A program made the translations under genes and the position numbers. From Pseudarthrobacter sp. BIM B-2242 (GTDB lineage Bacteria; Actinomycetota; Actinomycetes; Actinomycetales; Micrococcaceae), in assembly GCF_014764445.1 (NCBI RefSeq), contig NZ_CP061721.1, positions 4,030,001 through 4,094,000 of the forward strand: a stretch of 64,000 bases of DNA. Direction: 5' to 3'. This document shows positions 16,555 to 21,286 of this stretch, piece after piece (within the stretch, counting starts at the first letter, position 1; each line of letters opens with the position of its first letter). Below the pieces are notes generated by a model. That model made no database searches and was not told the DNA's origin. It saw nothing but the letters and a program-made list of their open reading frames with translations.

Positions 16555-18078
16555 TTAGTCCTGGAAGTACTCCACCTTGGCGCCAATGGTGTTGAGCCGT
16601 TCGGCCAGGTCTTCGTAGCCGCGTTCGATGACGTAGATGTTTCGCAGCTCCGACACACCCCGCGCGGCCAGCATGGCCAGCAACAGGCAGGCGGCGGGTC
16701 GAAGGGCGGGCGGGCAGCCCACCTCAGCGGCACGCCACTTGGTGGGACCGTTGACGTAGATCCTGTGCGGGTCCAGCAGCTGCACCTGCGCGCCGAGCCG
16801 GTTCAGCTCGGTGAGGTAGATGGCACGGTTCTCGTAGACCCAGTCGTGGATCATGGTCTGGCCGTTGGCGTTGGCGGCGATGACCGCGAAAAACGGCAGG
16901 TTGTCAATGTTCAGCCCCGGAAACGGCATGGGATGGATCTTGTCCTCCGGCGCCCGCAGCTCGGAGGGCTTGGTGGTTACATCCACCAGCCGGGTGCGGC
17001 CGTTCCGCGCCATGTACTCCCCGGAAATCTCCAGCTGCTGGCCCATCTGCCCAAGCGTGGCCAATTCAATCTCCATGAATTCGATGGGAACGCGGCGGAT
17101 GGTCACTTCGGAGTTTGTGACGATGCCGGCCGTGATCAGGCTCATCGCTTCGATGGGATCCTCGGACGGGAAGTATTCAATGTCGGCATCGACCACCGGC
17201 CGCCCTGTGATCTTCAGCGTGGTGGTACCCACGCCATCGATCTGCACGCCGAGCATTTCCAGGTAGAAGCAGAGGTCCTGGACCATGTAGTTCGGACTCG
17301 CGTTGCGGATCACGGTGGTTCCCTCGCGGTGCGCGGCGGCCATGATCGCGTTCTCCGTAACGGTGTCCCCGCGCTCCGTCAGCACGAAGGAGCGGTGCCG
17401 GGCGTCCGGCTTCGGAGCCTGCACCGTGTAGTAACCGGCGGTTGCCTCCACAGACAACCCGAACTGGCGCAGTGCCTGCATGTGCGGCTCCACAGTGCGG
17501 GTGCCCAGATCGCAGCCTCCGGCGTACGGCAGGCGGTATTCAGAAGACTCATCCAGGAGCGGGCCGAGGAGCATGATCACGCTGCGCGTACGGCGGGCGG
17601 CGTCCACGTCCATGGCGGCAAGGTCCAGAACGGCAGGGCGGCGCAGCCGGAGGTCCGTGTCGTTGAGCCAGGTGCATTCAACGCCGATGCTTGTCAGCAC
17701 CTCCACGATCCGGTTGACCTCTTCGATCCGGGCGAGGCGGCGCAGCACGGTGGTGCCGCGGTTAATCAGGCTGGCGCAGAGCAGGGCGACGCCGGCATTC
17801 TTGCTGCTGTTGACATCCACGGCTCCGGACAGTGTGCGGCCACCCTCGATCCGCAGGTGGGTCATCTGGGGTTTGCCCACCTTGACGATGCTCCTTTCGA
17901 AGATCGTCTCGAGCCGCTGGATCATCTTGAGGCTGAGGTTCTGCTTGCCCTGCTCCATCCGTGCGATGGCGCTTTGGCTGGTTCCAAGCGCCTCGGCGAG
18001 CTGGCCCTGGGTCCAGTTTTTTTCCATGCGGGCGTCTTTGAGCGTGGCAGCAATGTGCTCGGCGGTTTCCTGACTCAT
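16555..18078 (-). CDS. XRE-type HTH fused to MurA-like UDP-GlcNAc enolpyruvyl transferase
   Basis: A 507-residue fusion. Residues 8-64 are an XRE helix-turn-helix (MEKNWTQGQLAEALGTSQSAIARMEQG). Residues 72-507 are a full MurA-type enolpyruvyl transferase. Key positions are kept: SSKN (Lys93/Asn94), GGCDLGTR with the PEP-binding Cys189, the SEDPIEAMSLITAG aspartate, ENRAIYLTELNRLGA, and the C-terminal ALRPAACLLLAMLAARG arginine. MurA transfers enolpyruvate from PEP to UDP-GlcNAc to begin peptidoglycan synthesis. The domain looks active, so this may be a DNA-binding enzyme or a self-regulated second MurA. An inverted repeat lies 44 nt upstream of the start. Confidence 0.88.
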   Translation of the reverse strand: MSQETAEHIAATLKDARMEKNWTQGQLAEALGTSQSAIARMEQGKQNLSLKMIQRLETIFERSIVKVGKPQMTHLRIEGGRTLSGAVDVNSSKNAGVALLCASLINRGTTVLRRLARIEEVNRIVEVLTSIGVECTWLNDTDLRLRRPAVLDLAAMDVDAARRTRSVIMLLGPLLDESSEYRLPYAGGCDLGTRTVEPHMQALRQFGLSVEATAGYYTVQAPKPDARHRSFVLTERGDTVTENAIMAAAHREGTTVIRNASPNYMVQDLCFYLEMLGVQIDGVGTTTLKITGRPVVDADIEYFPSEDPIEAMSLITAGIVTNSEVTIRRVPIEFMEIELATLGQMGQQLEISGEYMARNGRTRLVDVTTKPSELRAPEDKIHPMPFPGLNIDNLPFFAVIAANANGQTMIHDWVYENRAIYLTELNRLGAQVQLLDPHRIYVNGPTKWRAAEVGCPPALRPAACLLLAMLAARGVSELRNIYVIERGYEDLAERLNTIGAKVEYFQD

Positions 18079-18296: not shown

Positions 18297-18315
18297 CAAA
18301 GTAAGCCTTACCTAA
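18297..18315 (+). promoter_or_regulatory. Iron box (DtxR/IdeR-type operator)
   Basis: CAAAGTAAGCCTTACCTAA matches the 19-bp actinobacterial iron-box consensus TWAGGTTAGSCTAACCTWA at about 14 positions, with the right half best conserved. It lies 22 nt before the acylase-acetyltransferase start, where an iron-loaded DtxR/IdeR/DmdR repressor would block transcription. Confidence 0.7.
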
Positions 18316-18337
18316 CCTTTGAAAGTAGCCCGCGACG

Positions 18338-21286
18338 ATGCCGCAATCCCCGACGCACGGCCCCGCTCCCGCAGGCGGCGCCGGAACGTACCGCGACCGG
18401 TGGGGAATTCCGCACTTGTGGGCAGAGTCCGCCAACCAGCTCGCCCGCCTTCAGGGCATGAATGCGGCGGCGGACCGCTCGTGGCAGATCGAGCTCGAAC
18501 GCTGGCGCTCGGAAGGCCGCACCGCTGAAATGATGGGCGCGGACGGCCTCCACTGGGACCGCTTCGCCAGGCAGGCCAGGCTGGATGACACGGCGCGCCG
18601 CTGCTTCGAAGGACTCGACGACGGCACCAGACGGTGGTGCGAAAGCTACGTGGCAGGCATCAACCAGGCACTGGAAGACGGGCTGCGCGGCGGGCCCGAG
18701 TTCGAGGAATCGGGTACGGCGCCTACGCCGTGGCACGCGTGGACGCCGCTTGGCATCTTCCTGGTCCAGCACATCCTGTTCTCCACGTTCCCCAACAAAC
18801 TCTTCCGTGCGCACGTGGCCAAAACACTGGGTCCCGATGCCGTGGGCCTGTTCAGCATCGAGGCCCCGGTCTGGTCCGGCAGCAACGCGTGGGCGGTCCA
18901 CGGTTCCGCGACGGCAAGCGGCAGGCCACTTATCGCCGGCGACCCCCACCGCCTGCTGGAACTGCCTGGCGTGTACCAGCAGGTGCGGCTCGCGTGCCCG
19001 GAGTTCGACGCCATCGGGTTCGCCTTCCCCGGCGTGCCCGGGCTGCCGCACTTCGGCCACACCGGACACACGGCCTGGGCCATCACCAACGCCATGGCCG
19101 ACTACCAGGACCTCTTCGAGGAGGAACTGCGGCGCGTCTCGGCGGGCACTGCGCCTGCGGGCACTGAGCCCGCCGCTTCGAGGCCCGCGGGCATCGAAGC
19201 GCGAGGCCCGCTCGGTTGGGAGCCCGCCGTCGTCAGCACGGAAACCATCCGCGTCCGCGGCGGCCGCCCCGTGGAGGTGGAGATTATCGAGACTGCCCGG
19301 GGTCCGGTCATTGCCGGAGGGCCCGACGGCGGCGCCCTGAGTCTGCGGTTTCCGGCGCGGGTGGAAGGGCGGCTGGGTTTCGAAGCCCTCCTGCCGCTGC
19401 TGCGGAGCCGTTCGGTGGCGGACCTGGAAGGGGCGCTGGCGGCATGGGTGGAACCGGTCAACAGCGTGGTCGCGGCCGACGCCTCCGGCACTGTCAGGCA
19501 CTTCGTGGCAGGGCTGGTACCGGAGCGGAACCACGCTAACCGCCGGACACCCGTACCGGCACGGAACTCTGCATATTCCTGGACAGGCATATGTGCGCCG
19601 CTGCCCAGCTTTGACGTGACACACACTGCCGTGAGTGCGAACGACCGAGATGCCGGCGGCGGGGATGCGGTTGCCATGGAGTTCGCGCCGGCCCACCGCG
19701 CCCGGCGCATCCGCCAGCTCCTTGAAGCCCGAACGGGGCCGCACACGGCGGACAGCATGCAGGCGATCCATTCAGATACGTTGCTTGGACCCTGGCCCCA
19801 ATACCGGGCTCTGCTCGGAACCCTCGATGGCGGTTCGCTGAGTCCCGCCGCGGTCCGGCTCCGCGCGCAGCTTCTGGCGTGGGACGGGCGCATGGACGCC
19901 GGCAGTACGGATGCGGCAGTCTTCGCAACGTGGCGCGGCCTCCTGGTCCGCGAGATTGCCCGGCACCCCGCCCTGGCCCCGCTCGCAGGACCCACGGGCT
20001 ACGCGCCGGTGTTCGGGCCATGGCTGTCGGCGGCTTCGCGGGTGGGATTCGCCCTCGAAACCCTGCTTGTGCGGGGGTCCGAGCTCGGCATCAGCCCGGA
20101 CGCCGCAGCAGCTGCGGCATTGGAGGAGGCTGCGGCATTGGAGGAGGCTGCAGCACTGGAGGAAGCTGCAGCACTGGAGGAAGCTGCAGCATTGGAGGAA
20201 GCTGTCCTGGGAGAAGCCGCGCGGGACGTTGCTGGCACACAGGGAAAAGGCTGGGGCAGGCGCCACCGGCTGCTGGCCGTGCACGAGCTCCCCGGCACGC
20301 TGGCCAACGCAGCGCCCACCGTGCCGCTGTCCGGCGACACCGGGTGTGTGCTGTCCACCGAAAGCCTGCCCGGAGTGGAAGACCGAAGCTTCCGCGGGCC
20401 GGTTGCCCGTTATGTGTGGGACCTGGCCGACCGGCAGCAGAGCCGCTGGGTTGTTCCTTTCGGCGCCGCGGGCACCCCGGGGCACCCCCATTTCGCGGAC
20501 CAGCTACCGCTGTGGGCAGCAGGGGAATTGCTTCCCGTGGTCACGGACTGGACGCTGCTCACTCTTGATTCCGTGCCAGCCCCGGGCACCCCGCCCGGCC
20601 CGGGCTCCCCCGCAACTACCCGTCCTACGAAGCAACCCATGCCCACGAAGGAACCTATGCCTGCAAAGGAAATCATGACCGCCCCCACCCAGGACTTCGC
20701 CGTGCGGACAACTGTCTACGCCGAAGAGTTCGAAGGCCGGAAGGAGCTCCGGATCCTCCCTCTGGTTCCGGCAGAGGACATCGATCTCATCCATGGGTGG
20801 GTCAGCCAGCCCCGGGCCAGGTTCTGGGGCATGACCGGGCACTCCCGCGAGGACGTGCTCGAAATCTACGAGTTCCTCGACTCACTGGACACACACCATG
20901 CCTTCCTGGTCCTGCTCGACGGCGAACCAACGGCACTTTTCCAGACCTACGAGCCACTGCACGATCCCGTCGGCGAGGCATACCCTGCCCGTGAAGAAGA
21001 CATCGGCATGCATCTGCTGCTGGCTCCGGCCACCCGGCCCGTCGCAAACTTCACGCCGCGGCTGGGCGCATCGCTCATCCGCTATATGTTCTCGACGCCC
21101 GGCAAGGACAGGATCGTTGTGGAGCCCGATGCCCGCAACGCCAAGGCCCGGCGCCGGCTCGAGGCCACTTGCTTTGAGCTCGGACCCGTGGTCCGGTTGG
21201 CGGAAAAGGAAGCCCAGCTGGCGTTCCTGACCCGTGCCGGTTTCGACCGGTCCGAGCCGCTGCGGTCCCGCTCAGGGCGCGGCTGA
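18338..21286 (+). CDS. Penicillin-acylase-family Ntn hydrolase fused to siderophore-type N-acetyltransferase
   Basis: A 982-residue fusion. Residues 15 to about 760 are an S45 penicillin acylase: alpha-chain part (GTYRDRWGIPHLWAESANQLARLQGMNAAADR), then the self-cleavage and nucleophile site WSG-SNAWAV (Ser182), LIAGDPHRLL and the FGHTGHTAWAITN oxyanion region. No signal peptide is evident. Residues 592-621 are five AAALEE-type repeats. After a Pro/Lys-rich linker, residues 780-975 are an IucB/RhbD-type GNAT domain (LIHGWVSQPRARFWGM, LFQTYEPLHDPVGEAYPAREEDIGMHLLL). An AAGGA precedes the Met780 codon (20675), so the second domain may also be made separately. The iron box argues for a siderophore role. 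Acyl substrates are unknown. Confidence 0.85.
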   Translation: MPQSPTHGPAPAGGAGTYRDRWGIPHLWAESANQLARLQGMNAAADRSWQIELERWRSEGRTAEMMGADGLHWDRFARQARLDDTARRCFEGLDDGTRRWCESYVAGINQALEDGLRGGPEFEESGTAPTPWHAWTPLGIFLVQHILFSTFPNKLFRAHVAKTLGPDAVGLFSIEAPVWSGSNAWAVHGSATASGRPLIAGDPHRLLELPGVYQQVRLACPEFDAIGFAFPGVPGLPHFGHTGHTAWAITNAMADYQDLFEEELRRVSAGTAPAGTEPAASRPAGIEARGPLGWEPAVVSTETIRVRGGRPVEVEIIETARGPVIAGGPDGGALSLRFPARVEGRLGFEALLPLLRSRSVADLEGALAAWVEPVNSVVAADASGTVRHFVAGLVPERNHANRRTPVPARNSAYSWTGICAPLPSFDVTHTAVSANDRDAGGGDAVAMEFAPAHRARRIRQLLEARTGPHTADSMQAIHSDTLLGPWPQYRALLGTLDGGSLSPAAVRLRAQLLAWDGRMDAGSTDAAVFATWRGLLVREIARHPALAPLAGPTGYAPVFGPWLSAASRVGFALETLLVRGSELGISPDAAAAAALEEAAALEEAAALEEAAALEEAAALEEAVLGEAARDVAGTQGKGWGRRHRLLAVHELPGTLANAAPTVPLSGDTGCVLSTESLPGVEDRSFRGPVARYVWDLADRQQSRWVVPFGAAGTPGHPHFADQLPLWAAGELLPVVTDWTLLTLDSVPAPGTPPGPGSPATTRPTKQPMPTKEPMPAKEIMTAPTQDFAVRTTVYAEEFEGRKELRILPLVPAEDIDLIHGWVSQPRARFWGMTGHSREDVLEIYEFLDSLDTHHAFLVLLDGEPTALFQTYEPLHDPVGEAYPAREEDIGMHLLLAPATRPVANFTPRLGASLIRYMFSTPGKDRIVVEPDARNAKARRRLEATCFELGPVVRLAEKEAQLAFLTRAGFDRSEPLRSRSGRG
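20111..20200 (+). repeat. Five tandem 18-bp in-frame repeats
   Basis: Five units of 18 bp, typified by GCTGCGGCATTGGAGGAG, run without interruption inside the acylase domain and encode AAALEE repeats. Units differ only at a few third positions, so copy number may vary between strains. Confidence 0.9.

Follow-up and report, generated by a model that had tools for sequence, protein, structure and literature searches.

Results and Discussion

The desGH Locus

The window, that is, the whole 64,000-nucleotide stretch of Pseudarthrobacter sp. BIM B-2242 DNA analysed here, contains a plus-strand gene in which a penicillin-amidase-family (S45) acylase and a siderophore-type acetyltransferase are encoded in one reading frame, preceded by a predicted iron box. 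The following features were assigned (window coordinates, strand in brackets).

18297–18315 (-): predicted DtxR/DmdR-type iron box TTAGGTAAGGCTTACTTTG, 22 nt before the ATG (pattern scan and shuffles)
18338–21286 (+): desGH fusion gene, 982 amino acids, ATG start (open reading frame call, Pfam)
18389–20554 (+): DesG part, S45/penicillin-amidase Ntn hydrolase domain, residues 18–739 (PF01804, fold matches)
18881–18883 (+): codon of Ser182, the predicted nucleophile, which would become the N-terminus of the beta chain upon putative self-cleavage between G181 and S182 (from the family)
20110–20204 (+): 5.3 tandem copies of an 18-bp unit that keeps the frame (AALEEA), within an acylase helix of variable length (repeat scan, alignment, model)
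20564–20689 (+): linker between the two enzymes, residues 743–784, predicted disordered (pLDDT under 50)
20648–20677 (+): relic of a desH ribosome-binding site and start, AAGG with in-frame ATGs at 20657 and 20675 (putative initiation)
20768–21193 (+): DesH part, IucB/RhbD-type GNAT acetyltransferase domain, residues 811–952 (PF13523; DfoC and NcdE matches)

The flanking genes on both sides lie on the minus strand, and desGH therefore appears to stand alone. Upstream and divergent from it is a gene (16555–18078) for an EPSP-synthase/MurA-type enzyme with an N-terminal helix-turn-helix domain, and downstream a gene for a CbiQ-type transport protein. A Pfam scan of 30 other window proteins, a part of those encoded there, found no siderophore family among them, in agreement with the initial annotation, which had noted desGH as the window's sole siderophore gene.

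Domain Organization and Predicted Active Site of DesGH

The initial annotation had described the 982-residue frame as a complete S45 acylase joined to an IucB/RhbD-type GNAT domain and had proposed a domain search. The Pfam scan placed PF01804 at residues 18–739 (E 7.7e-150) and PF13523 at residues 811–952 (E 1.6e-44) and, together with the alignment at the cleavage site, bears this description out. The cleavage site reads V-W-S-G followed by S182, the Ntn serine, which aligned with residue 1 of the solved beta chains. An alignment of 28 proteins showed G181-S182-N183-A184-W185, D202-P203-H204-R205 and N375 to be invariant. Ser182, His204 and Asn375 presumably have the active-site roles known for the family, and from the family we infer that the DesG half self-cleaves between G181 and S182.

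An AlphaFold2 model of moderate quality (28 sequences, mean pLDDT 75, pTM 0.67) contained two folded parts and the disordered linker 743–784. Judged by eye, the N-terminus has no hydrophobic stretch, consistent with a cytoplasmic enzyme that can draw on acetyl-CoA. An almost identical protein (P0008) carries a frameshift inside the AALEEA repeat and ends at 726 aa, which may be real variation or an assembly fault.

The GNAT half matched DfoC and NcdE, and thus has the siderophore-type relatives on which the original reading depended. With the separately encoded DesH proteins from three genomes of the genus it shared 77–79% identity, versus 37% with the DesC encoded in its own genome, and it is accordingly a PF13523 domain fused with DesG and distinct from DesC. 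An aminoglycoside acetyltransferase was rejected, the NCBIfam AAC(6') matches scoring 17–25 bits against cut-offs of 260–415.

PvdQ, an Ntn S45 acylase of siderophore maturation with a fatty-acyl substrate and a periplasmic site, had been taken as a model at the outset. Both proteins are Ntn S45 acylases, but DesGH scored 15.8 bits with the NCBIfam PvdQ model, far below the family cut-off of 950, PvdQ appeared in the fold search from rank 38, and the N-terminus without a hydrophobic stretch likewise speaks against the comparison; PvdQ-like maturation was therefore rejected.

The Acyl Group Probably Removed by the DesG Half

According to the available excerpt of PMC12161575, a paper of 2025, the S. 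coelicolor operon desJGH encodes a penicillin-amidase-family protein, DesG (SCO4049), and a DesC-like acetyltransferase, DesH (SCO4050), with DmdR1 as regulator, and these separate, iron-regulated genes are needed for normal production of desferrioxamine B (DFOB). They correspond to the separate Streptomyces penicillin-amidase-like and acyltransferase genes that the initial annotation had mentioned. In the same excerpt, inactivation of desG lowered DFOB about 1000-fold and that of desH 16-fold, DFOE going up, and the proposed route has DesG take the succinyl group off N-hydroxy-N-succinylcadaverine and DesH acetylate what remains; DesC acetylates N-hydroxycadaverine itself in vitro. Both genes were lowered by salt in S. 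coelicolor (PMC13011467, excerpt). The window gene resembles this pair in its domain families, in the upstream regulator site and in lying away from desABCD, and differs in being fused and in having no desJ neighbour.

The fold search, whose ranking is independent of PMC12161575, gave D-succinylase at ranks 1–3 and 5, class III cephalosporin (glutaryl) acylase at ranks 4 and 6, and further glutaryl/cephalosporin acylases at ranks 7–12; the N-acylhomoserine lactone acylase MacQ occupied ranks 13–16, and penicillin G acylases came after it. The best PDB sequence match was 35sz, named "penicillin acylase family protein", followed by glutaryl acylases and D-succinylase. D-succinylase (7eby) and the glutaryl-7-ACA/cephalosporin acylases (4hsr) are like DesGH in fold and in the position of the Ntn nucleophile, but were matched without a GNAT domain and at 24–32% identity in the fold search. 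The ranking fits removal of a succinyl group by the DesG half but is no proof of it.

An acylase half acting on aryl or fatty acyl groups would instead lead to arylated or long-chain-capped desferrioxamines. Phenylacetic-acid-capped forms were the products first proposed for DesG, and some strains have aryl or fatty-acyl caps (PMC12161575, excerpt); penicillin G acylases and MacQ are, moreover, among the relatives listed above. We regard this reading as improbable, since the top structural matches are named for succinyl or glutaryl removal and the S. coelicolor desG mutant loses acetyl-capped DFOB according to the same excerpt.

Predicted Iron Box and the desABCD Genes

The site TTAGGTAAGGCTTACTTTG has two mismatches to the pattern TTAGGTWAGGCTWACCTWA, a pattern with W positions that was used because an earlier one missed desGH's own site. 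It was the sole match in the window at up to three mismatches, and none of 100 shuffles of the window gave one. At the same limit the whole genome of 4.78 Mb contained three distinct sites. The second (L184, C1:749307–749325) directly adjoins the start of a gene for a siderophore-interacting protein that may be a counterpart of DesF/DesJ, and the third is located 85 nt in front of a gene for a solute-binding protein. The DtxR-type box noted initially 22 nt before the start is thus one of three predicted sites genome-wide, and the iron-controlled siderophore link drawn from it is supported; iron regulation of desG and desH is reported for S. coelicolor (PMC12161575, excerpt).

The absence of other siderophore genes holds for the window proteins scanned and not for the genome. 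Besides desGH, the genome has one other PF13523 gene, which lies beside its single PF04183 gene, and the two belong to a complete desABCD set in the order PF00282, PF13434, PF13523, PF04183. These genes are about 3.7 Mb from desGH along a contig of 4.36 Mb, or about 0.65 Mb if the contig is circular. An iron-box-like site, CTAAGTAAGTCTTACCTTG, precedes the desA reading frame by 28 nt; with five mismatches to the consensus used it falls beyond the three-mismatch limit of the genome-wide scan and was found by a looser one. A stand-alone enzyme without a pathway was ruled out by the finding of desABCD.

A box within three mismatches was present near the DesG start at 75 of 96 relative loci, against 0 of 1920 resampled upstream regions. 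Judged by eye, its occurrence followed the position of the NIS synthetase gene. Eight of the 16 phylum-sample loci had a box with at most two mismatches and an NIS synthetase gene far off or on another contig, and the other eight (best site at least five mismatches) had one within about 10 kb. Among 17 family loci, the seven without a box were all near an NIS synthetase gene and nine of the ten with a box (up to three mismatches) were far from one, the exception (G043) having it about 4 kb away. This distribution of predicted sites is roughly what would be expected if genes that stand alone need an operator of their own.

Distribution of DesG-Type Acylases

In a family sample of 197 genomes, a DesG-type acylase with DesH was found in 19 of the 80 genomes with PF04183 and in none of the 117 without it (Fisher p 9e-9, which overstates independence, as do the other co-occurrence p-values, the sampled genomes being related). 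Six of these 117 had weaker acylase matches (30–33% identity) that were classed, without a tree, as ordinary S45 acylases. The 19 loci comprised ten fused and nine separate ones, a fused one (G185) being split over two contigs. In a phylum sample of 396 genomes, 33 had an acylase match at E 1e-40. Seventeen of these, the window included, were of DesG type, all in genomes with PF04183 (17 of 31, versus 0 of 365 without); four were fused, ten separate, and three had no adjacent DesH. The remaining 16 were S45 acylases of lower identity, one of them in a PF04183 genome, and the link was kept when all 33 were counted (18/31 versus 15/365, p 2e-14, again among related genomes). Up to four candidates per genome were scored in the family and up to two in the phylum searches, so that some genes may have been missed.

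Both Pfam domains were present in 22 of the best 120 of 4329 homologous proteins. Among the named loci, a set biased towards fusions by the fused query, 51 of the 79 classified were fused (Streptomyces, Micromonospora, Kribbella, Dactylosporangium and others); L083, with no GNAT nearby, was never classified. The survey for the same fusion and for nearby NIS synthetase genes suggested in the initial annotation thus yielded further fusions, some of them near such a gene: in several distant family genomes the fusion lies near the NIS synthetase gene, unlike that of the window, which is far from it.

Some loci depart from these arrangements. In L173, L175 and L177, DesG lies within about 10 kb of an NIS synthetase gene with no adjacent DesH, an arrangement described for Gordonia rubripertincta CWB2 (PMC12161575, excerpt). 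The desG frame of L042 (G190) is broken into two. The same-genus genome G106 has a DesH-like gene (L052, about 57% identical), and a DesG search run without a positive control gave no match in G106, G009, G164 or G086.

Removal of acyl groups from foreign hydroxamate siderophores, either for recycling or for scavenging as the initial annotation had also envisaged, would be compatible with the predicted iron box and with the distance from desABCD. Given an N-terminus with no export features by eye, DesG-type genes that track NIS synthetases, and separate homologues that are biosynthetic in S. coelicolor (PMC12161575, excerpt), such a role is very unlikely.

Fused and Separate Forms on the DesG Tree

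DesG-type proteins grouped apart from other S45 acylases on one branch (SH-aLRT 100), in a tree to which the phylum sample contributed 13 of its 16 other S45 acylases and which did not include SCO4049. A first tree of fused and separate forms (105 rows) gave four changes of state and was biased to fusions, because a fused query had supplied its 80 named loci as top matches. For the second tree, 16 phylum-sample loci were added, and L042 (broken desG), L043 (long branch), 20 near relatives, P0004 and P0098 were omitted. On the DesG tree of 98 rows the state changes 12 times, nine of the changes being forced by well-supported branches; this many switches between the fused and the separate form is a new detail.

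These counts give no direction, for which local nesting was used. The window protein and six other fused proteins formed one clade (96/85) inside a Micrococcaceae clade of 37 rows (100/100), 30 of which have separate genes. As the window fusion nests among mostly separate genes, its origin from separate genes is favoured here, and it was probably a separate event from the published fusions. The latter are those stated for S. atratus and for Micrococcus spp. CH3 and CH7 (PMC12161575, excerpt); the fusion of S. atratus (L116) has the same desG-desH order as that of the window. A desGH fusion being already in print for other bacteria, the novelty is lower than had been thought when the gene was initially called unusual; literature searches found no further paper on desGH fusion among the best-matching titles.

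The Linker and the Probable Origin of the Fusion

In the desGH linker the former ribosome-binding site and start codon of desH recur as an 18-bp near-repeat, two copies of which have AAGG five bases before an in-frame ATG, and stops are present in both other frames. In two same-genus genomes (G152 and G137), desG and desH are separate genes that share a frame and are parted by a single TGA and a short gap, and in a third (G063) they are separate and in different frames. Measured between a conserved Asp-Trp and the former desH start, the window gene is about 21–23 codons longer than G152 and G137 and has no stop. On this comparison, the window fusion apparently came about when the stop separating desG from desH was lost.

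Seven proteins from other sources, 69–81% identical to DesGH, have the same two-domain layout, which makes a sequencing artefact unlikely, and a protein-level comparison revealed a KE(T/A)M relic in six of the seven. A base-calling artefact joining two adjacent genes, for which the single TGA in two of the three same-genus relatives, the tandem repeat within the gene and the frameshifted P0008 might be cited, is scarcely credible in view of the longer, stop-free linker, these fused relatives with their relic, and the clade that six of the seven form with the window protein.

Proposed Function

Taken together, the domains, the active-site blocks, the predicted iron box, desABCD, the co-occurrence with NIS synthetases and the nesting among separate genes make it highly probable that the gene is a desGH fusion supplying the acetyl-capped monomer for desferrioxamine B. 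The same combination, PF01804 with PF13523, is the published search rule for desGH (PMC12161575, excerpt). The reaction specificity and the expression of desGH in this strain are those we infer from this evidence. At low iron a DtxR-family repressor would leave the box at 18297–18315, allowing desGH transcription. The self-cleaved acylase half, in the cytoplasm, would strip succinate from N-hydroxy-N-succinylcadaverine, the product of DesABC, and the tethered GNAT half would use acetyl-CoA to convert the freed N-hydroxycadaverine into the acetylated monomer. DesD, encoded elsewhere in the genome, would then couple acetylated and succinylated monomers to DFOB and not only to cyclic DFOE. The fusion may exploit a high local concentration of the intermediate, as suggested by the authors of PMC12161575 (excerpt).

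Gene presence may not predict the product, since of two strains of S. globisporus whose des clusters are identical, one yields DFOE and the other DFOB (PMC12525621, excerpt). A fused desGH is present in another S. globisporus strain (L093); in this species desGH is a candidate cause of the difference, or else its presence does not fix the product.

Because the linker still carries, in frame, the ribosome-binding site and start that once served desH, free DesH might be produced beside tethered DesGH. This retained, possible internal start is a second new detail. A broader and rather doubtful extension is that desGH is a dual-output gene giving both free DesH and DesGH, in which translation would set the balance of acetylation to desuccinylation and thus DFOB versus DFOE; the repeated changes between the two gene arrangements in Actinomycetota would then tune that balance.

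DFOB is a drug against iron overload. The preference for DFOB over DFOE has recently been tied to DesG and DesH (PMC12161575, excerpt). The desGH gene of the window is a clear and well-supported new example of a known fusion. Standing alone and fused, it would be a compact subject for studying the deacylation-reacetylation model and the effect of tethering, for which the many interchanges of both forms on the tree offer natural fused and separate pairs for comparison.
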